Positions 55,208-64,000 of a stretch of DNA of 64,000 nt are shown piece by piece (the first letter of the stretch is position 1; each line of letters starts with the position of its first letter). Made by a program: the position numbers and the translations under genes. The notes below the pieces were generated by a model that made no database searches, was not told the origin of the DNA, and saw nothing but the letters and a program-made list of their open reading frames with translations. The DNA is from Streptomyces sp. R28 (GTDB taxonomy: Bacteria > Actinomycetota > Actinomycetes > Streptomycetales > Streptomycetaceae), in contig NZ_CP163439.1 of the NCBI RefSeq assembly GCF_041052385.1, positions 124,001-188,000 of the forward strand. The letters run 5' to 3'.

Positions 55208-55987
55208 CTATCCGCGGTCGGCGAGGAAGCGGTCGAGCGCCAGCGTCAGTTCCGCCGGCTTCTCCACCGGCAGTTCGTGGCCGGCGTCCAGGATGCGGAC
55301 CACCGCGTCCGGGTAGGCCTTGGCCATCCGCAGCATCTGGGCGACCGGCAGCTGGATGTCGTGATAGCCGTGGACTATGAGGGTGGGCGCGGCTATCTCG
55401 CCGACCCGGTCCAGTACGTCGAAGGCGCGCATGGCGCCGTAGAGCGTCATGACGACCTCGCGGGGAGTCTCGGCGGAGGCGCGGATGGCCGCGCGGACCT
55501 CCTCGCGCGGGTACCCGGGCGCGAAGGCGCGCCGGATGTTGGCGGCGACGAACAGCTTGAAGGGGGCGAGCGTCGAGGCGGCCATCAGCAGGGCGCGGCC
55601 CCGGCTGTAGGCCATCTTGCCGATGGAGTCCACCAGCACCATGCGCTCGATCCGCTCCGGGTGGGCGAGGGCGATGGTCTGCGCGGTCATGCCGCCCATG
55701 GAGTGACCGATGATCACGAACCGTTCGATCTTCAGGTGATCGAGGAGGGCGACGACGTCCTTGGCCAGCTCGTCGATCGTGCGCACCCCCGATCCGCTGC
55801 TCTCGCCGTGCCCGCGCAGGTCGAGGCGGACGACGCGGCGCCGCTCGGCGAAGTGGGCCACCTGGTGGTCCCAGCGGTGACGGTTCGCCGTCCAGCCGTG
55901 GACGAACACCAGGGGCACACCGTCACCGTCGCGGGGGCCCTCGTCGTCGTACGTCAGGGTCGCGCCGTCGACTTCGAGCTGCGGCAT
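55208..55987 (-). CDS. alpha/beta hydrolase
   Basis: A 259-residue alpha/beta-fold hydrolase. The oxyanion loop is VFVHGWTANRHRWDHQV, the nucleophile Ser is in IGHSMGGMTAQ, the acid in GYHDIQLP and the catalytic His in AGHELPVEKP. It is similar to lactonase/esterase-type enzymes. It lies 65 bp downstream of the PKS-linked hydrolase on the same strand and is the last gene of the minus-strand operon; it could serve as a type II thioesterase or editing hydrolase, but this is only inferred from position. Confidence 0.8.
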   Translation of the reverse strand: MPQLEVDGATLTYDDEGPRDGDGVPLVFVHGWTANRHRWDHQVAHFAERRRVVRLDLRGHGESSGSGVRTIDELAKDVVALLDHLKIERFVIIGHSMGGMTAQTIALAHPERIERMVLVDSIGKMAYSRGRALLMAASTLAPFKLFVAANIRRAFAPGYPREEVRAAIRASAETPREVVMTLYGAMRAFDVLDRVGEIAAPTLIVHGYHDIQLPVAQMLRMAKAYPDAVVRILDAGHELPVEKPAELTLALDRFLADRG

Positions 55988-56052
55988 GGGTGGCCTCCTG
56001 GTATCCAGTTTCTCGTTACTGACCGGTACGGTAACCGGGCTTCCGGCTGTCG

Positions 56053-57204
56053 TCACCGGCGTTCGCCCAGGAAATCGAGGATGTGCCCGAAGACGTCGAG
56101 GGCTGCTCCCCTGCCGAGGAACGTGTCCAGGTGGCCGTAGCCGGGGATCTCGGTGTACGTGACGTCCAGTTGTGGTTGGCGACGGGCGAGGACGTCACGG
56201 CAGAGCTTCTGGGAGTCGAGCCACAGGCCGTTCTCGCTGCCCGCGAGGAGCAGGACCGGGGTGTCGATACGGGCCGCCGCGTCCAGGGCGTTCTGCGGGA
56301 GGGCCCGGTAGCGGTGGTCGGTGTCGTGCCAGCGGACCACGGTGCGGGCCAGTTCGATGCGGCGCAGGTGCGGCAGGATCCACAGCGGGGCGGGGCCGAG
56401 CAGTTCGGCGAGTCGGTCGTGGGTGGCGTCGGTCAGGTGCTCGTGGACGAAGAGGGAGGCGCCGGTCCCCCAGGCCGAGTTGTGCAGGATCTGGCAGGTG
56501 GGGTCCGGGCAGGTCGCCCTGCGGGAGGCCAGGGCGAACAGCGGGGTGTACTTCGACCACAGGCCGACCTTGCGGAGGTCGACGGGGATGTGGTCGATAC
56601 GGGACTTGAGGAGTTCGCCCGCCAAGGTCATGCGCAGGGAGGTGCGGCCCGCGAGCTTCGGGGTGAGGAAGACGCCCTGGGACACCACACCGGCCAGGCC
56701 TGGCACCAGGCCTGCCGTCATGCTCATCGAGAGGGCGAGGGAACCGATGCAGTGGGCGACGACGGACAAGGGGCGGTCGCCGATGCGGGTGCGGATGTGG
56801 CGGACGGCCTCGGGGATGTCGTAGAGGGCGACGTCGTCGTAGGTGTAGCGGCGGCCCGTCTCGTTGTACGGCAGCCGGCAACTGCCTCGCCAGTCGAGCA
56901 GCCAGGGCTCGTAGCCCTCGTCCAGGAGGACGTCGACCAGGTTGCGGGTCTCGGGCAGCAGGAACATGTCGGCCGAGGCCGTGTGTCCGTGCAGGAGCAG
57001 GACGGCCGGGCGGTCGCGGGCGGGGGCGCGGTCGCCGGTGTCGATGCGGGTCAGGCCGAGGCGTACGCCGTCGGTCGTGTGGAAGGGGATCTCCTCGACC
57101 GTCGCCGGATCCAGGCGGTGGCGCAGGGGGCGCAGGGGCGTGGTGGTCCTCACCCTGCGCAGGGCCGGCCCGGCGGTCCTGGGGTTCGTCGTTCTGAAGA
57201 TCAT
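56053..57204 (-). CDS. alpha/beta hydrolase of the GMC-oxidase-associated type, Cys nucleophile
   Basis: A 383-residue hydrolase. The oxyanion loop reads LLHGHTASADMFLLPETRN and WLLDWRGSCRLPYNE marks this subfamily. The nucleophile elbow is VVAHCIGSLAL, with Cys at the Ser position, and catalytic His is in GYGHLDTFLG. Related proteins occur fused to, or beside, GMC-type cholesterol-oxidase-like proteins in actinomycetes. Its ATG overlaps the stop of the PCP-thioester-reductase gene by 4 nt (ATGA), so it is translationally coupled to the biosynthetic operon and probably processes its product. Confidence 0.8.
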   Translation of the reverse strand: MIFRTTNPRTAGPALRRVRTTTPLRPLRHRLDPATVEEIPFHTTDGVRLGLTRIDTGDRAPARDRPAVLLLHGHTASADMFLLPETRNLVDVLLDEGYEPWLLDWRGSCRLPYNETGRRYTYDDVALYDIPEAVRHIRTRIGDRPLSVVAHCIGSLALSMSMTAGLVPGLAGVVSQGVFLTPKLAGRTSLRMTLAGELLKSRIDHIPVDLRKVGLWSKYTPLFALASRRATCPDPTCQILHNSAWGTGASLFVHEHLTDATHDRLAELLGPAPLWILPHLRRIELARTVVRWHDTDHRYRALPQNALDAAARIDTPVLLLAGSENGLWLDSQKLCRDVLARRQPQLDVTYTEIPGYGHLDTFLGRGAALDVFGHILDFLGERR

Positions 57205-59630
57205 CGGTGGTGCTCCGTGGGGTTCGTGGTGCGGCGCAGGTCGAGCAGGTCCGCGGCGGCGCGGGCGAAGGGGCCGAGCAGACCGCGGCCCATCTCCAGG
57301 CCGAACCAGGCGAGCCAGGTGAGCTTGGCGGCACGCTTCTCCTGGCTGGTCAGGCGCGGGTCGACCTTGATGCCGTCGATCTGGTCGCGTACGTAGGAGT
57401 CGGCGGGGACGACGACCTCGCCGGCCAGGCTCGCCGGTTCGCCCTCACGGCCGAGCTCCACGGTCAGGGCGCGGGTCTGGCGCCAGAGGTCGCGGCGGGC
57501 GCGGGCGTACTTGTGGCCCTCCAGCCACCAGCGGCCGCCGTCGGTGTCCGTCAACTCCAGGCGGTAGCGCAGGAGTTGGTGACGCAGGCCGTGCCGGTGC
57601 GGGATGCCTTCCTCGGGGCGGATCCAGATGTCACCGCGTTCCACGTTGAGCGGCTCGGGGTGCAGGGCCGGGCAGGTGACCACGCCTCGGACGTCGACGC
57701 GGCGGTCCGTCACCAGCTGGTGCATGCTCGCGATGGAGAGGGTGAGGGACATCGCGCAGGGACTGCAGGGGGTGGCGGGAGCAGCGGGGGCGCCAGTAGG
57801 CGCGGCGGGGGTGGCGGCGACAGGGGCGACGGTGCCTTCGGTGGTCTCGGTGAACCACAGGTAGGGCTGGTCGTCCTTGTGCGGGAGGCGGGCCAGGCCG
57901 TCGTGGGCGAGGCTTTCGAAGGTCTTCAGCTGGGCTCGGGCGTCGTAGCGGGAGGCCGGGGGAAGGCCGAGGGCCCGGACGAGTGCGGTGGTGCGGTCGG
58001 CCGTGGCGGCCGGGCCCTTCAAGGTCGCCTCGCAGAGTTTCAGGGCGGTGGGGCTCTGCAACACGCGGTTCAGGAAGCCCAGTTCGGGGATCGGGTCGGC
58101 CTGGAGGCGGGCCAGGGCGTCGGTGCGCCACTCGTCCCAGTCCTGTACGCGGACGTGCATGCCGCCGAGGGCCATGTCGCTTACGACGTCGTCGAGGGTG
58201 TTGGGGACGCCGGTGAGGTTGTAGTCGAAGCCCCAGGCGTCGGGTTCGCAGATGACGGCGACCGCCACACGGCTCACCCAGTCGACGGGGGCGGCGTTGA
58301 GGTAGCGGAAGGCGGGGACCGTGCGGAAGCGGCCGAAGGCCGAGATGAGGCCGCTGCTCAGGTCCTGGGGGTTGTAGGCGCCGGTCTTCGTGTGACCGCC
58401 GATGCCGCCCGGACGCAGGGCCGTGACGACCAGGCCGTGGTCGCGGGCGCGGCGCAGGGCCACTTCGGCGGCCCACTTCGTCTGGTCGTAGCCGGCGACG
58501 AGGCGGTCGATGTGGGCGAGGGGGTCGTCCTCGCCCATGGCGGGGATGCCGACCTCGTTGAACACCGCGATGGAGGAGATGTGGTGCAGGGGCTTGGGAC
58601 GGCCGGTCGCGGCGAGTTCTGCGAGGGTGAGGGCGCCGAGGACGTTGCTGGTGCGCAGGGACTGGTAGCCGCGCAGGAAGTCCACGGCGGCCGCCACCGC
58701 GACGATGCTGTCCACTTCGTGGGCGAGGGTGTTCCAGAGGTCCTCGGTGAGGCCCAGCCGGGGGTGGCGGATGTCGCCGGGCAGCACGGTGATGCGGCGG
58801 CGGATCTCCGACGACCAGGGCAGCGCGTAGCTCTTGAGCGCCTCGCCGAGCCGGGCCACGGCCGCCTCCTCGTCGGCGGCCCGGACCAGGCAGTACACGT
58901 GGGCGTCGCTGTGGCGCAGCAGGTCCAGGAGCATGTGGCTGCCGAGGAAGCCGGTGGCGCCGGTCAGCAGGACGCGGCGGGGCGGCAGGGGGTCGGGCGA
59001 GGCGGTGAAGGGGAGGCGGTCGGCGAGGGCCAGGTCGGCGAGGACCTGGGTGAGGTCTTCGGGGCGGGCCGTGGAATCCGACGGGGCGGTGAGGGGCAGG
59101 GCGGCCGCCGGCGGAACCCGCACCGCCCGCGTCACCGCGGGGACAGCGTCCGGGGGGCGCTGCGTTTGCGGTACGGCCGTCGCGGATCCCGTGCTCTCCA
59201 GCGCGCGCCTGGCCAAGCTGATCGGCCTGGCGTCGGCGAACACCTCGTCCAGGTCGACCGACAGGCCCAGCTCTTCCTCCAGCGCCGAGACGAGCTCCAC
59301 CGCGTTCACGGAGGTGCCGCCGGCGTCGAAGAAGTCGGCGTCGGGCGCCAGTTGTCCTGCGGGGACGTGCCGGCCCGCCACGGCTGCGACGGCGCGGGCG
59401 AGGGCGTCCACGTCGCGGGGCGGGCCGCTGTGGACGGGCGAAGCCGTGCCCGGTCCGCTCCCGCGGGCCGCCGTAGGTTCCGCGGCATCCGCTCGCGCGG
59501 CCGGCTCGGCCGACTCCGTGACCTTGGCCAGGAGGTCGGTCACGGTCAGACCGACGCCGCCCCGCTCGATCGCCTCCGCGGTCGCCCGCTGATCGGCGGC
59601 TGTCGGCACGTTGTCCTTCATCTCACGCAT
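57201..59630 (-). CDS. carrier protein-thioester reductase with C-terminal GMC-associated domain
   Basis: An 809-residue terminal release protein. Residues about 70-150 form a peptidyl/acyl carrier domain (LAPDADFFDAGGTSVNAVELVSALEEEL, phosphopantetheine Ser in GGTS). Residues about 215-590 form an NAD(P)H-dependent thioester reductase (RRVLLTGATGFLGSHMLLDLLRHSDAHVYCLVRA, YDQTKWAAEVALRRA as the active-site YxxxK). Such domains release the carrier-bound acyl chain as an aldehyde or alcohol. Residues about 635-809 match the lipid-binding domain normally found next to GMC cholesterol-oxidase-like proteins (GVVTCPALHPEPLNVERG, RYRLELTDTDGGRWWLEGHK). The start at ATG 59630 has GAAGGG; it is 52 bp after the PKS gene. 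Confidence 0.85.
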   Translation of the reverse strand: MREMKDNVPTAADQRATAEAIERGGVGLTVTDLLAKVTESAEPAARADAAEPTAARGSGPGTASPVHSGPPRDVDALARAVAAVAGRHVPAGQLAPDADFFDAGGTSVNAVELVSALEEELGLSVDLDEVFADARPISLARRALESTGSATAVPQTQRPPDAVPAVTRAVRVPPAAALPLTAPSDSTARPEDLTQVLADLALADRLPFTASPDPLPPRRVLLTGATGFLGSHMLLDLLRHSDAHVYCLVRAADEEAAVARLGEALKSYALPWSSEIRRRITVLPGDIRHPRLGLTEDLWNTLAHEVDSIVAVAAAVDFLRGYQSLRTSNVLGALTLAELAATGRPKPLHHISSIAVFNEVGIPAMGEDDPLAHIDRLVAGYDQTKWAAEVALRRARDHGLVVTALRPGGIGGHTKTGAYNPQDLSSGLISAFGRFRTVPAFRYLNAAPVDWVSRVAVAVICEPDAWGFDYNLTGVPNTLDDVVSDMALGGMHVRVQDWDEWRTDALARLQADPIPELGFLNRVLQSPTALKLCEATLKGPAATADRTTALVRALGLPPASRYDARAQLKTFESLAHDGLARLPHKDDQPYLWFTETTEGTVAPVAATPAAPTGAPAAPATPCSPCAMSLTLSIASMHQLVTDRRVDVRGVVTCPALHPEPLNVERGDIWIRPEEGIPHRHGLRHQLLRYRLELTDTDGGRWWLEGHKYARARRDLWRQTRALTVELGREGEPASLAGEVVVPADSYVRDQIDGIKVDPRLTSQEKRAAKLTWLAWFGLEMGRGLLGPFARAAADLLDLRRTTNPTEHHR

Positions 59631-59682: not shown

Positions 59683-62600
59683 TCATGGCCGCCGCCACGA
59701 ACGGAACGTCCGCAGCTGCTCCGGTGTGACCACGGCCTCCAGCCGTTCGTGTTCCTGATCGCCGCCGCCCAGTGCCGAGAGCAGGCGACGGGCGGGGGCG
59801 TTGCGAGGCGTGCGTTGCGCGGTCAGGCGGACCTTCGCGCAGTCCAGTTCCTCGGCGCGGTCGGCGAGCCATTGCAGGAGGCGTTCCTCGACGCCTCGGC
59901 CGAGTGCGCGGCAGCTCATCAGCCAGGCGAGGACGTCGAGTTGGTCGCCCTCGCGGCGCAGGGCGAGGAGGCCGATCTGGCCGTAGTCACCGAAGCGGTC
60001 GCGGGCCGCCGCCGTCCAGACCTCGCCGTCTTCGCGCCACCGGGCGACATCGCCGCCGTCGGTGGAGCGGGCGCGGAGGGTGAACTGGTTGGTACGGCGG
60101 ACGAGCTGCTCGGCCCGCGGCACATCGGCATCCGACAAGGACCGGATGTCGACCTCCAGTTCCAGCCGGTCCAGGAACTCCTCGAAACCGGCCTGTTCGC
60201 GTACGGCGTCCCGCTCCCGTTCCTCCTCGTAGAACCGCGCTCGCAGCGAATCCTCGGCCGTCGCAGCGACTGGGACCAGCGGCCACAACCGGCCCAGGAA
60301 CTCGGGCAGTTCGGCCGTCGGCGGGCAGGTGACCGACAGCACCTGCGGCAGCGCGGCGCGCATCTTGGCGATCTCGGCGGGGTTGTCGTCGAGGAACAGG
60401 AAGCTGTCCGGGCCGAGGTTGAGCGTGCGAGCCGCCTCGGCGAGGCGAGCGGGTTTCGGGTCCCAGGCGGCGGAGAGCACGCTGAAGTGCTCGGCCTTCA
60501 GGGGGCTGTCCGGGCGGTCCAGTACGGCGCGGACGGTGTCCTCGTCGTTGTTGCTGACCAGCACCAGCAGCGCGCCGGCCGCCCGCCACTGCAGGAGCCT
60601 GCGGGCGAGCAGTGCTCGCGGGCCGCTCAGGTCCACGGCCTCGGGGCCGGTCTCCCCGGCCACCCCGCCCCACAGCGTCTCGTCGCCATCGACGGCGATC
60701 ACCTTCGGCGCGGGACGCCGTACCGCTCGCACGGCCTCGGCGAGGCAGAGGGCCACGGCTGCCTGGAAGTGCGGGGTGAAGGGGAGGTGGGCCAGGCGTT
60801 CGGTCCGCTCGTCGAAGCGTTCGCCGATCGGGTGGTGGCGGGTCCAGTCGTCAGGGCCGAGCACGGCGATGCCGGGCACGTCGGCCAGTTCGGCGGCGAT
60901 CTCCCGTTCCCACCGGCTGAAGCGGTCCTCGCCCTGTACGGCGGGCAGGAAGCCGACGATCAGCGGCTTGCGGGTGCGCTCGGCGACCGCGCGCAGTGCG
61001 GCCGGGTAGGCGGTGCGCAGTTCGGCGAGCAGTGCGTCGTCGACCGGGCCGAAGCGTTGCAGGTCCGTCGCCCGCAGCAGGGCGACGCCCAACGTCGTGG
61101 CCGGGTCGGCGAACACGCCGGACGGGTCGCGCAGGCTCGCCAGTACGTGGTGGTACGGGGCCTCGGCGACGGTCGTCGCGCTGTCGGCCGGGACGGACGC
61201 GTTGATCGCCGTCTCGCACATCAGGGGCAGGTTGCCGAGGGCGAAAGTGGCGGCGAGGGCGAGCGTGGGGGGTGGTGGCGCGGTGGTGGGCCCCGCTTCC
61301 GGGATCTCGATTGGCGTCAGCGTCGCATCCACCGGCCCTGTCCCCTTCGTATCCACCGGTCCCGTCCGCGTCGTATCCACCGGCCCTGTCCGCGTCGGAC
61401 GGACCGGCCCCGTCGGGTCCTCGGCCGTCTCCGCGAACAGGGCCAGCAGTTCCTCGCCCAGTTCGGTGGCCGTCGCCGCGTCCAGGATGTCGAGGTTGTG
61501 GTCGAGGCGGATCCGGCCGGCGTCCGGCGTCATGGAGATCATCAGGTCGAGGTCGGAGTAGCCCGTCCCGGCCGGCAGCACCTCCAGGCCGGTCAGCCCG
61601 CGTGCGGCGCGTACGTAGTTGAAGTACACCTCCACCAGCGGCGCGTTGGCCCGGTACAGGCCTTGTCGGGCGAGCACCGGCAGGACGTCGGAGAACATCG
61701 CGCCCTTGGCCAGCAGCCGCTCCAGTCGCCCGTCGGTGCGGCGCAGCACCTCCTCCATCCGCTCCCCCGCGTTCGCCTCGGCGGGGAAAGGAACCGGCAC
61801 GCCGAAGAAGCCCACCGCGTCGTAGGCGTCGGCGTGGACGCGGGTGTCCACGGGTACGGCGAGGACGAAGCGTTCACGCTCGCGCTTCCTGGCCAGCAGG
61901 ACGGTCAGGGCGCCGAGGCAGAAGGCGGCAGGGGTCACGGCCAGGCGGCTCGCGGCGGTCGAGATCCGGTCCATGAGCCCGTCGGGGATCGGCACGGTGA
62001 CGCTGCCGGCGCGGTACGAGCGGGACTGCGGGCGTGGTCGGCTCAGGGTCAGGTCGAGGCGTGCGCTGTCGTGGAACGCCTCGCGCCAATCGCCCGCCTC
62101 GGCCGACCCCGTGGCCCGCTCGCCGGTCTGCTGGGCGTCGATCAGCAGGTCGATGTCCCGGTTGGTGACGGTGTCGCCGAGCGTGTCGCCGGACAGCTCG
62201 GCGTCGATCTCGCCCGCCACCAGCAACAGCGACTGCAGATCGCTGACGGCGTGGTGGGCGCCGTACACGAGGATCTGGCCGCGTTCGCCGCCGTCCAGCA
62301 GTTCGAAACGCCACAGGGGCGCGGCAGCCAGGTCGAACGGTGGCTCCAGGAGCTCGCGCAGCCGGTCGGCGGCATCGAGGGCGATGTCCTCCGCCACGAC
62401 CGTCCACCGCAACAGCGGTTCCGGCAGTTCGCGGTCCACCCTCAGCTGCCGCCCGCCTTCGTCGGCGGTGACGACGGCGGTGCGCAGGGCCGCGTGCCGT
62501 GCGGTGAGGCGGGTGAGGATGCCGGTGAGGGTCTCGCGGGTGGTCGGCGTGGTGAGCCGTACCGCCAGGCCGACGGCGTGGGCCGCGCCCGGCATGTCGG

Positions 62601-64000
62601 GCTGGGCGCTGCGCAGGAGCCGTACGACGTCGCGGGTCGCGGGGTGCAGTGCGGTCTCGGGTACCTCCGGCGCGCGCGCCGGCTGCTCCCTGGTCGTTGT
62701 CTCCCGTTCCGGAAGCGCCGTTCCCAGGGCCTGGGCGAGGCCTCGGATGTCGGCGGCCGAGAAGACGGTGGCGACGGGGAGTTCGACGCCGAGTTCGCGG
62801 GCGAAGGCGTTGCGCAGCCGCACGAGCATGAGGGAGTCGAGGCCGAGTTCCTTCAGGGCCGTGGTCGCGGAGACCTGGACCGCGCCGCCGGAGACCTCAC
62901 CGACCCGGGCGCGTACGTACGCCTCCAGCCGTACGGCCCGCTCGGTGCCGGTGGTCGCCGCGAACACCTTCTTGACGAGGTCGTCCGTGCCCGGGGTGCC
63001 CGTGGGGGCGGTGATCAGGTCGGCCAGGATCGGACGGGTGCGGGCCGCGTCGGGGTCGAGGGCCAGCATCTCCCAGTCCAGGGCCAGGGGGGCGAGCTGG
63101 CGGCGGGCCGTGGCAAGGACGCGGTCGAAGAGTTCGCCGCCGTCCTGCGCGGAGAAGGCGACCAGGCCCGAGCGGGCCGTCTCGGCCTCGCGGGCGCCGG
63201 ACGCGGACACCATGCCCACGCCCGACCAGGCGCCCCAGTCGAGGCTCAGCGCCCGACGGTCCGTACGGGAGAGGTGGTGGGCCCACGCGTCGAGGAACGC
63301 GTTCGCCGCCGAGTACGGGCTCTGCCCGGCCGAGCCGAGCAGGCCGGCCGCCGAGGCGAACAGGACGAAGTCCTTGGCGTCCGGGGTCAGTTCGGTGAGC
63401 AGGGTGGTGCCGAGGACCTTGGGGGCGAGGACGCGCAGGACCCGCTCGTCGGTCAGGTTGGCGATCGTGGCGTCGTCGAGGACGCCGGCCGCGTGGACGA
63501 CGCCGGTGATCGGGCCGAGTTCGTGCCGTACGGCGTCCAGGGCTGCGGTGAGGCCGTCGCGGTCGGCGACGTCCGCGCGCGCCAGGTGCACGGTCACATC
63601 GCGCGCCTCGAGATCCCGGATCCAGCCCGCCGAGTCCGCGGAGGGTGTGCTCCGGCTCATCAGAGCCAGTCGGCGGGCGCCGCGACGGACCAGCCGCTCG
63701 GCGACGACACGTCCGAGGCCGCCCAGACCGCCGGTGATCAGGTACACGCCGTCCGGGGTGATGACGCCGTGACCGCCGTCGTCCGGGCGGGTGCGGGTCA
63801 GGCGGGGGACGAGTCGTCCGGCCCCGCGCAGCGCGACGAGCCGTTCGTCGTCGGCGTGCCGCAGCTGGGTCCACAGCGCGTCGGCGCCGTCCGTGGGCGG
63901 GAGGTCGACGAGGGTGGTCCTCAGTTCCGGGTGTTCCTGCGCCACTGCGAGGCCGAAGCCCCAGGCGAGCGCTTGCTGAGGGGCCGTCACCTGCGTGCTG
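59683..64000 (-). CDS. hybrid PKS: KR-ACP-condensation-FkbH, partial (5' end off window)
   Basis: At least 1,439 residues are visible; the gene continues to the right. In order: a ketoreductase (LITGGLGGLGRVVAERL NADPH site; FVLFASAAGLLGSAGQSPYSAANAFLDAW with catalytic Ser and Tyr). An ACP follows (LKELGLDSLMLVRLRNAFARELG). Next is an NRPS-type condensation domain (about residues 455-880; LVYGAHHAVSDLQS gives HHxxxD) and a Pro/Thr linker with TGPVD repeats. The end is an FkbH-like HAD-IIIC domain (KVIAVDGDETLWGG, FLFLDDNPAEIAKMRA) and its GNAT-like C-terminal part. FkbH proteins transfer a glyceryl group from 1,3-bisphosphoglycerate to a carrier protein. The next gene supplies a carrier plus reductase, so a glyceryl unit may be loaded there and condensed with the polyketide. 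Confidence 0.88.
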   Translation of the reverse strand, partial: STQVTAPQQALAWGFGLAVAQEHPELRTTLVDLPPTDGADALWTQLRHADDERLVALRGAGRLVPRLTRTRPDDGGHGVITPDGVYLITGGLGGLGRVVAERLVRRGARRLALMSRSTPSADSAGWIRDLEARDVTVHLARADVADRDGLTAALDAVRHELGPITGVVHAAGVLDDATIANLTDERVLRVLAPKVLGTTLLTELTPDAKDFVLFASAAGLLGSAGQSPYSAANAFLDAWAHHLSRTDRRALSLDWGAWSGVGMVSASGAREAETARSGLVAFSAQDGGELFDRVLATARRQLAPLALDWEMLALDPDAARTRPILADLITAPTGTPGTDDLVKKVFAATTGTERAVRLEAYVRARVGEVSGGAVQVSATTALKELGLDSLMLVRLRNAFARELGVELPVATVFSAADIRGLAQALGTALPERETTTREQPARAPEVPETALHPATRDVVRLLRSAQPDMPGAAHAVGLAVRLTTPTTRETLTGILTRLTARHAALRTAVVTADEGGRQLRVDRELPEPLLRWTVVAEDIALDAADRLRELLEPPFDLAAAPLWRFELLDGGERGQILVYGAHHAVSDLQSLLLVAGEIDAELSGDTLGDTVTNRDIDLLIDAQQTGERATGSAEAGDWREAFHDSARLDLTLSRPRPQSRSYRAGSVTVPIPDGLMDRISTAASRLAVTPAAFCLGALTVLLARKRERERFVLAVPVDTRVHADAYDAVGFFGVPVPFPAEANAGERMEEVLRRTDGRLERLLAKGAMFSDVLPVLARQGLYRANAPLVEVYFNYVRAARGLTGLEVLPAGTGYSDLDLMISMTPDAGRIRLDHNLDILDAATATELGEELLALFAETAEDPTGPVRPTRTGPVDTTRTGPVDTKGTGPVDATLTPIEIPEAGPTTAPPPPTLALAATFALGNLPLMCETAINASVPADSATTVAEAPYHHVLASLRDPSGVFADPATTLGVALLRATDLQRFGPVDDALLAELRTAYPAALRAVAERTRKPLIVGFLPAVQGEDRFSRWEREIAAELADVPGIAVLGPDDWTRHHPIGERFDERTERLAHLPFTPHFQAAVALCLAEAVRAVRRPAPKVIAVDGDETLWGGVAGETGPEAVDLSGPRALLARRLLQWRAAGALLVLVSNNDEDTVRAVLDRPDSPLKAEHFSVLSAAWDPKPARLAEAARTLNLGPDSFLFLDDNPAEIAKMRAALPQVLSVTCPPTAELPEFLGRLWPLVPVAATAEDSLRARFYEEERERDAVREQAGFEEFLDRLELEVDIRSLSDADVPRAEQLVRRTNQFTLRARSTDGGDVARWREDGEVWTAAARDRFGDYGQIGLLALRREGDQLDVLAWLMSCRALGRGVEERLLQWLADRAEELDCAKVRLTAQRTPRNAPARRLLSALGGGDQEHERLEAVVTPEQLRTFRSWRRP
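61327..61398 (-). repeat. three tandem 24-bp repeats in the PKS linker
   Basis: Units begin at 61327, 61351 and 61375 (each starting ATCCACCGG on the plus strand), followed by a degenerate partial copy. They encode repeated TGPVD-containing octapeptides between the condensation and FkbH domains. Confidence 0.75.

Follow-up and report, generated by a model that had tools for sequence, protein, structure and literature searches.

A foxicin-type polyketide locus in Streptomyces sp. R28 with a proposed glyceryl-loading and reductive release core

Results

A foxicin-type core at the end of a polyketide gene cluster

The single-contig 10.76 Mb genome of Streptomyces sp. R28 carries a polyketide synthase (PKS) gene cluster whose end lies in the window, the 64,000-nucleotide stretch analysed here (C1:124001-188000). 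Its five core genes are 70-89% identical to the fox genes, so by sequence it adds a new member to the published foxicin-type kind. From the domains and from analogy with characterized systems, we consider it reasonably likely that a core of this type loads a glyceryl unit through an FkbH domain, esterifies it through a condensation (C) domain and releases the product reductively. The identity of the genes, the order of the domains, the catalytic residues and the co-occurrence of the parts were observed; every chemical step is inferred. The features of the window are as follows.

55208..56056, minus strand: ABH2, an alpha/beta hydrolase with a Ser nucleophile (GHSMGG), FoxEII ortholog (PF00561)
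56053..57204, minus strand: ABH1, an alpha/beta hydrolase with a Cys nucleophile (AHCIGS), FoxEI ortholog (PF12146/PF00561)
57201..59630, minus strand: ACP-thioester reductase-X protein, 809 aa, FoxBIII ortholog (PF00550, PF07993, TIGR01746)
57231..57758, minus strand: domain X, ~176 aa, predicted beta-barrel with a C-terminal helix
59683..64000, minus strand: C-terminal 1438 aa of the FoxBII ortholog (open frame and assembly with the upstream DNA)
59755..60714, minus strand: FkbH, with a HAD part (DGDET at 60676-60690, Lys, DD) and an acyltransferase part (SCRALG at 59899-59916) (TIGR01686)
60715..61248 (approximate), minus strand: NEX-like N-terminal extension of FkbH, between C and the phosphatase part (FkbH comparison)
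61399..62658, minus strand: condensation domain with the motif HHAVSDLQS (PF00668; PDB C domains by phmmer)
62692..62895, minus strand: ACP of module 2 (PP-binding / ACP_SdgA_C, motif LDSLMLV)
63211..63750, minus strand: KR of module 2; both the NADPH motif TGGLGGLG and the catalytic Tyr are intact (Pfam KR/adh_short, motifs)

Positions 59683-63999 form one open frame, the last third of a type I PKS/NRPS gene of 4640 aa on the minus strand (C1:183683-197605) whose upstream part lies off the window. Pfam and NCBIfam matches give the domain order ACP-KS-AT-DH-KR-ACP-KS-AT-DH-KR-ACP-C-FkbH. An AMP ligase of 665 aa (C1:197670-199667) is encoded 64 bases upstream of the PKS gene, also off the window. 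Downstream on the same strand follow the genes for the ACP-thioester reductase-X protein, ABH1 and ABH2, with ends that overlap or nearly touch.

A sequence-only reading of this DNA had placed KR, ACP, an HHxxxD condensation domain and a DxDxT FkbH domain in one chain, followed by a separate carrier protein-thioester reductase. Both statements hold: the domains lie in a single minus-strand frame with Pfam/NCBIfam matches, and the gene at 57201-59630 has PP-binding and TIGR01746 matches. That reading gave no strand, covered the C-terminal part of the PKS alone and missed the third domain (X) of the reductase protein. Its remark that no adenylation domain is visible stands for amino-acid A domains in the part examined, but the neighboring gene off the window encodes a FAAL-type AMP ligase. 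The upstream DNA that it wished to see shows the PKS continuing to C1:197605, and the next gene encodes this FAAL-type ligase, predicted to serve the starter acid.

A divergent gene block (C1:200112-204423) lies beside the core; its first gene encodes a sensor-kinase-like ATPase (~560 aa) and its last a protein of ~412 aa. It is found on the same side in one group of orthologous loci (G097, G049, G104, G007).

Relationship to the foxicin cluster

The foxicin cluster of S. diastatochromogenes Tü6028 (KT440882) has similar clusters in 21 more strains and encodes foxBI (583 aa), foxBII (4807 aa), foxBIII (945 aa), foxEI (378 aa) and foxEII (259 aa) (PMC5318452). The genes in 60 kb of the Tü6028 genome match these lengths, with BII read as 4869 aa from an earlier start; foxEI was missed by the gene caller and scored separately by tblastn. 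The window and Tü6028 proteins are 78% (foxBI), 73% (BII), 70% (BIII), 89% (EI) and 85% (EII) identical, and within FoxBIII the thioester reductase (TR) reaches 86% and X 82%. In both genomes foxBI-foxBII-foxBIII-foxEI-foxEII are adjacent and in this order, and FoxBII has the same domain order, including a first DH with the motif HxxxGxxxxS. The cluster is not new; its core is the foxicin core.

The flanks are a different matter. In Tü6028 the core is flanked by foxA, foxGI and further fox genes; around the R28 core these are missing, and no fox-like tailoring genes were found near it. Gene calling in and around the Tü6028 cluster gave 32 genes, and of these the core alone is common to 13 orthologous loci; two further genes each matched one of these loci. 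The 371-aa and 481-aa genes, by length foxA and foxGI, are in none of the 13 within ~10 kb flanks on each side of the core, the span that the comparison covered, at the locus only.

Disruption of foxBII abolishes foxicin A, which carries its acyl chain as an amide on the nitrogen of an aminoquinone, without a glyceryl ester (PMC5318452). This counts against the glycerol ester that had been suggested as the product. In foxicin the glyceryl would be either a leaving group or built into the ring, or the core would make a different product that other enzymes then convert.

Predicted acyl chain

Judged by their motifs, the two KRs and the second DH are apparently intact. The AT motifs are YASH/FASH, which suggest methylmalonyl units, so the chain that arrives at the C domain is probably a 2-methyl-2-enoyl chain. 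Such a chain fits the acyl chain of foxicin A and is a misfit with ring closure of the malleicyprol type. The 2,4,6-trimethylheptadienoyl chain of foxicin (renumbered in this analysis) is consistent with two methylmalonyl/KR/DH modules, and the double bond of the first DH is placed beta,gamma in foxicin as published (PMC5318452).

Condensation and FkbH domains

The C domain scores 75.7 bits against a cut-off of 30.6, with HHAVSD at 62239-62256, and its PDB matches are peptide-synthetase C domains at low scores (19-67 bits). HHxxxD is kept in nearly all C domains of the family. The residue after Asp is usually Gly in C domains; here it is Leu, as it mostly is across the family.

The FkbH domain matches TIGR01686 with 411 bits (cut-off 147). 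It had been said that loss of catalytic residues would tell against its function; in the alignment the domain retains them all (D10, D12, T14, K88, D110/D111 and C269 in FkbH domain numbering), and they are conserved across 83 C-fused FkbHs and 6 others. The invariant Cys stands in the SCR motif of the acyltransferase part, and from its conservation and from knowledge of the family the glyceryl is probably carried on it. The preceding extension has regions of 28-32% identity in FkbH proteins without a C domain and corresponds to the part named NEX in BurF (PMC12304814).

Of the 199 genomes sampled from the genus, 24 carry a C-FkbH fusion, mostly with 73-93% identity, which is far beyond chance. 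A third FkbH in the R28 genome lies in a 1248-aa frame (C1:8979250-8986018), with a separate condensation-domain gene 4.6 kb off.

Proposed reassignment of FoxBI and FoxBIII

The FoxBI ortholog scores 440 bits with FAAL_FadD32 against 147 bits with AA-adenyl-dom, both under their own cut-offs. Its top PDB relatives are mostly FAALs, and the best-named ones are FAALs rather than amino-acid A domains. On these grounds the published label of foxBI as an A domain looks wrong, and we relabel it a FAAL.

The FoxBIII ortholog matches the thioester reductase family TIGR01746 with 249 bits (cut-off 213) and has the motifs TGATGFLG (NADPH) and YxxxK, of which TGATG and YxxxK are kept across the family. 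No thioesterase family in Pfam or NCBIfam matches it. Because of these results and the extra C-terminal X, the published label "PCP-TE" looks wrong as well, and foxBIII would encode ACP-reductase-X.

Domain X and the Cys-type hydrolase

No Pfam family matches X. Its structure model (pLDDT 74, moderate confidence) has weak beta-barrel matches, some of them cyclases. Foldseek gave no match at E <= 0.001, and a PDB sequence search with X returned nothing. The best VIA-align hit (Z 8.2, a Penicillium herquei beta-barrel enzyme) is within the chance range for unmatched models, so we claim no fold family for X.

The nucleophile of such alpha/beta hydrolases is usually Ser, whereas ABH1 has Cys. Distant ABH1 relatives (31-41% identical) adjoin or lie near a large protein in all five loci examined (L184, L185, L186, L187, L188), which is a GMC oxidoreductase in all three that were scanned with Pfam. 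In this small set, the C-terminus of two or three of the GMC-type proteins weakly resembles X (E 3.5e-5, 4e-4 and 0.03). GMC enzymes and TR alike produce aldehydes, so X and ABH1 may handle aldehydes.

Distribution of the cassette

X is distinctive enough to serve as a query, and a search with it among genome contigs identified 77 loci, mostly in Streptomyces and also in Nocardia, Amycolatopsis, Kitasatospora and Actinacidiphila. C, FkbH, TR, X and ABH1 occur together in every one of the 60 loci of at least 18 kb; ABH2 is found in 36 of them. In a sample of the phylum, X was present in 3 of 396 genomes, all three of the genus Streptomyces. The cassette follows varied PKSs (two-module FAAL-primed, FAAL-fused, multimodular cis-AT and trans-AT).

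The R28 genome encodes a second C-FkbH / ACP-TR-X / ABH1 cassette (C1:2095120-2110079) behind a trans-AT PKS of 2806 aa with two KS and no AT. The two PKSs are 58% identical over C-FkbH; C, FkbH, TR and X share 53-75% identity with the window copy, and KS just 39-43%. Similar loci to this second cassette are found in S. coelicoflavus and S. coeruleorubidus. In Nocardia stercoris (L138:11472-14205) genes for a glycosyltransferase and a PapA-type acyltransferase come after the cassette, which suggests a glycosylated, acylated lipid as the product. An MFS-exporter-like gene directly follows the cassette in several cis-AT relatives (L142, L147, L148).

We tentatively speculate that C-FkbH/ACP-TR-X/ABH1 is a portable actinomycete release system that turns varied chains into acyl-glyceraldehydes for conversion by X and the hydrolase, and that X and ABH1 form a pair with a general role in handling aldehydes, partnered elsewhere by GMC oxidoreductases. 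Such a cassette could be moved between PKSs. The C-FkbH fusion occurs in about one in eight sampled Streptomyces genomes, yet the literature found links foxicin alone to it.

Proposed pathway and alternatives

In the pathway that we favor, the FAAL would activate a carboxylic acid and load the N-terminal ACP. Two modules would then add what are probably methylmalonyl units and carry out the reductions that leave a 2-methyl-2-enoyl chain; the first DH probably sets its own double bond beta,gamma, as published for foxicin. FkbH would take 3-phosphoglyceroyl from 1,3-bisphosphoglycerate, remove the phosphate and hand the glyceryl on to the ACP that begins the reductase-X protein, a loading step already suggested by the sequence-only reading and in keeping with the conserved catalytic residues, family knowledge and precedents. 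The C domain would join the polyketide to a hydroxyl of the glyceryl unit as an ester; the kept HHxxxD motif and the ester-forming vioprolide and BurF systems are consistent with this step, which had likewise been suggested. The reductase, with NADPH, would then release an acyl-glyceraldehyde, or an acyl-glycerol after a second reduction. Here the conserved NADPH and YxxxK motifs and aldehyde release by BurF argue for the reductive release put forward earlier. X and the Cys-type ABH1 would then act on the aldehyde or ester. Neither ester versus amide nor two- versus four-electron reduction can be read from the sequence, and the amide of foxicin A without a glyceryl ester and the Leu in place of Gly in the C motif count against the proposal.

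The published foxicin model (PMC5318452), in which the foxBI A domain attaches a diamino acid to a carrier protein already bearing glyceryl and the thioesterase at the end of foxBIII hydrolyses the product, suits the nitrogen and the amide of foxicin A. It is nevertheless very improbable, given that the FoxBI ortholog is nearest to FAALs in PDB and NCBIfam comparisons, the FoxBIII ortholog is a reductase with no TE match, the Tü6028 proteins are the same as those of the window, and foxA and foxGI were found in none of the 13 orthologous loci. These enzymes are at odds with the published pathway, whereas the labels FAAL, reductase, X and Cys-type hydrolase give a simple one. That one could also end differently: glyceryl may be a temporary handle, with the acyl-glyceraldehyde or its ester as acyl donor for ABH1, whose Cys would move the chain to another acceptor (an aminoquinone in foxicin), leaving a final product without glyceryl. 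The Cys nucleophile of ABH1, the presence of this hydrolase in 60 of 60 loci, and foxicin A, with the expected chain and no glyceryl, speak for this ending, but the quinone genes stand outside the conserved core, and we regard it as unlikely. We know of no case of amine acylation by such a route.

Butenolide formation as in malleicyprol, a ring closure of the aldehyde onto the acyl alpha-carbon, would share the C-(NEX)-T-Red logic of BurF and could draw on the weak similarity of X to beta-barrel proteins, some of them cyclases. Malleicyprol requires a beta-keto ester, however, whereas here the last module has an apparently intact KR and DH and an AT motif that points to an alpha-methyl group; we hold this ring closure to be quite improbable. 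BurF retains the NEX part alone, and an FkbH that no longer loads glyceryl could similarly leave another hydroxy acid to be loaded in trans. Conservation of the whole FkbH and its catalytic residues in the aligned C-fused copies makes this highly improbable. Streptoglycerides were rejected as a product because they contain a C-linked glycerol as part of a tricyclic acetal, which does not fit, and a tetronate route was set aside as no FabH-like enzyme is encoded among the core genes.

Comparison with vioprolide and malleicyprol biosynthesis

In the part of the published account considered here, VioA of the vioprolide pathway (Cystobacter) starts with a FAAL, has FkbH in place of an A domain and makes a glycerate ester through a C domain (PMC8949500). 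Compared by this description, VioA and the window share the FAAL start and the C domain next to FkbH. Unlike in the window, the VioA chain runs on into a peptide, and that part of the account describes no reductive release.

BurF (malleicyprol, Burkholderia) has the order C-NEX-T-Red and forms an ester and then an aldehyde, as established by mutagenesis and trapping. In BurF NEX is an FkbH remnant; its orthologs are coupled to full FkbH parts in 95% of cases, and the authors suggest that BurF lost such parts (PMC12304814). By published description, BurF and the window both combine an acyl-primed PKS with C, an FkbH-related NEX, T and Red. BurF no longer has the catalytic parts of FkbH and uses trigonic acid, whereas the fox family has a complete FkbH; the BurF beta-keto chain cyclises to a butenolide, and X is not among the BurF domains named (PMC12304814). 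The vioprolide and BurF precedents support glyceryl loading, esterification and reductive release for the window. The proposed glyceryl attachment and aldehyde release differ from the published foxicin mechanism, and the corrected labels would join the fox pathway to those of vioprolide and malleicyprol.
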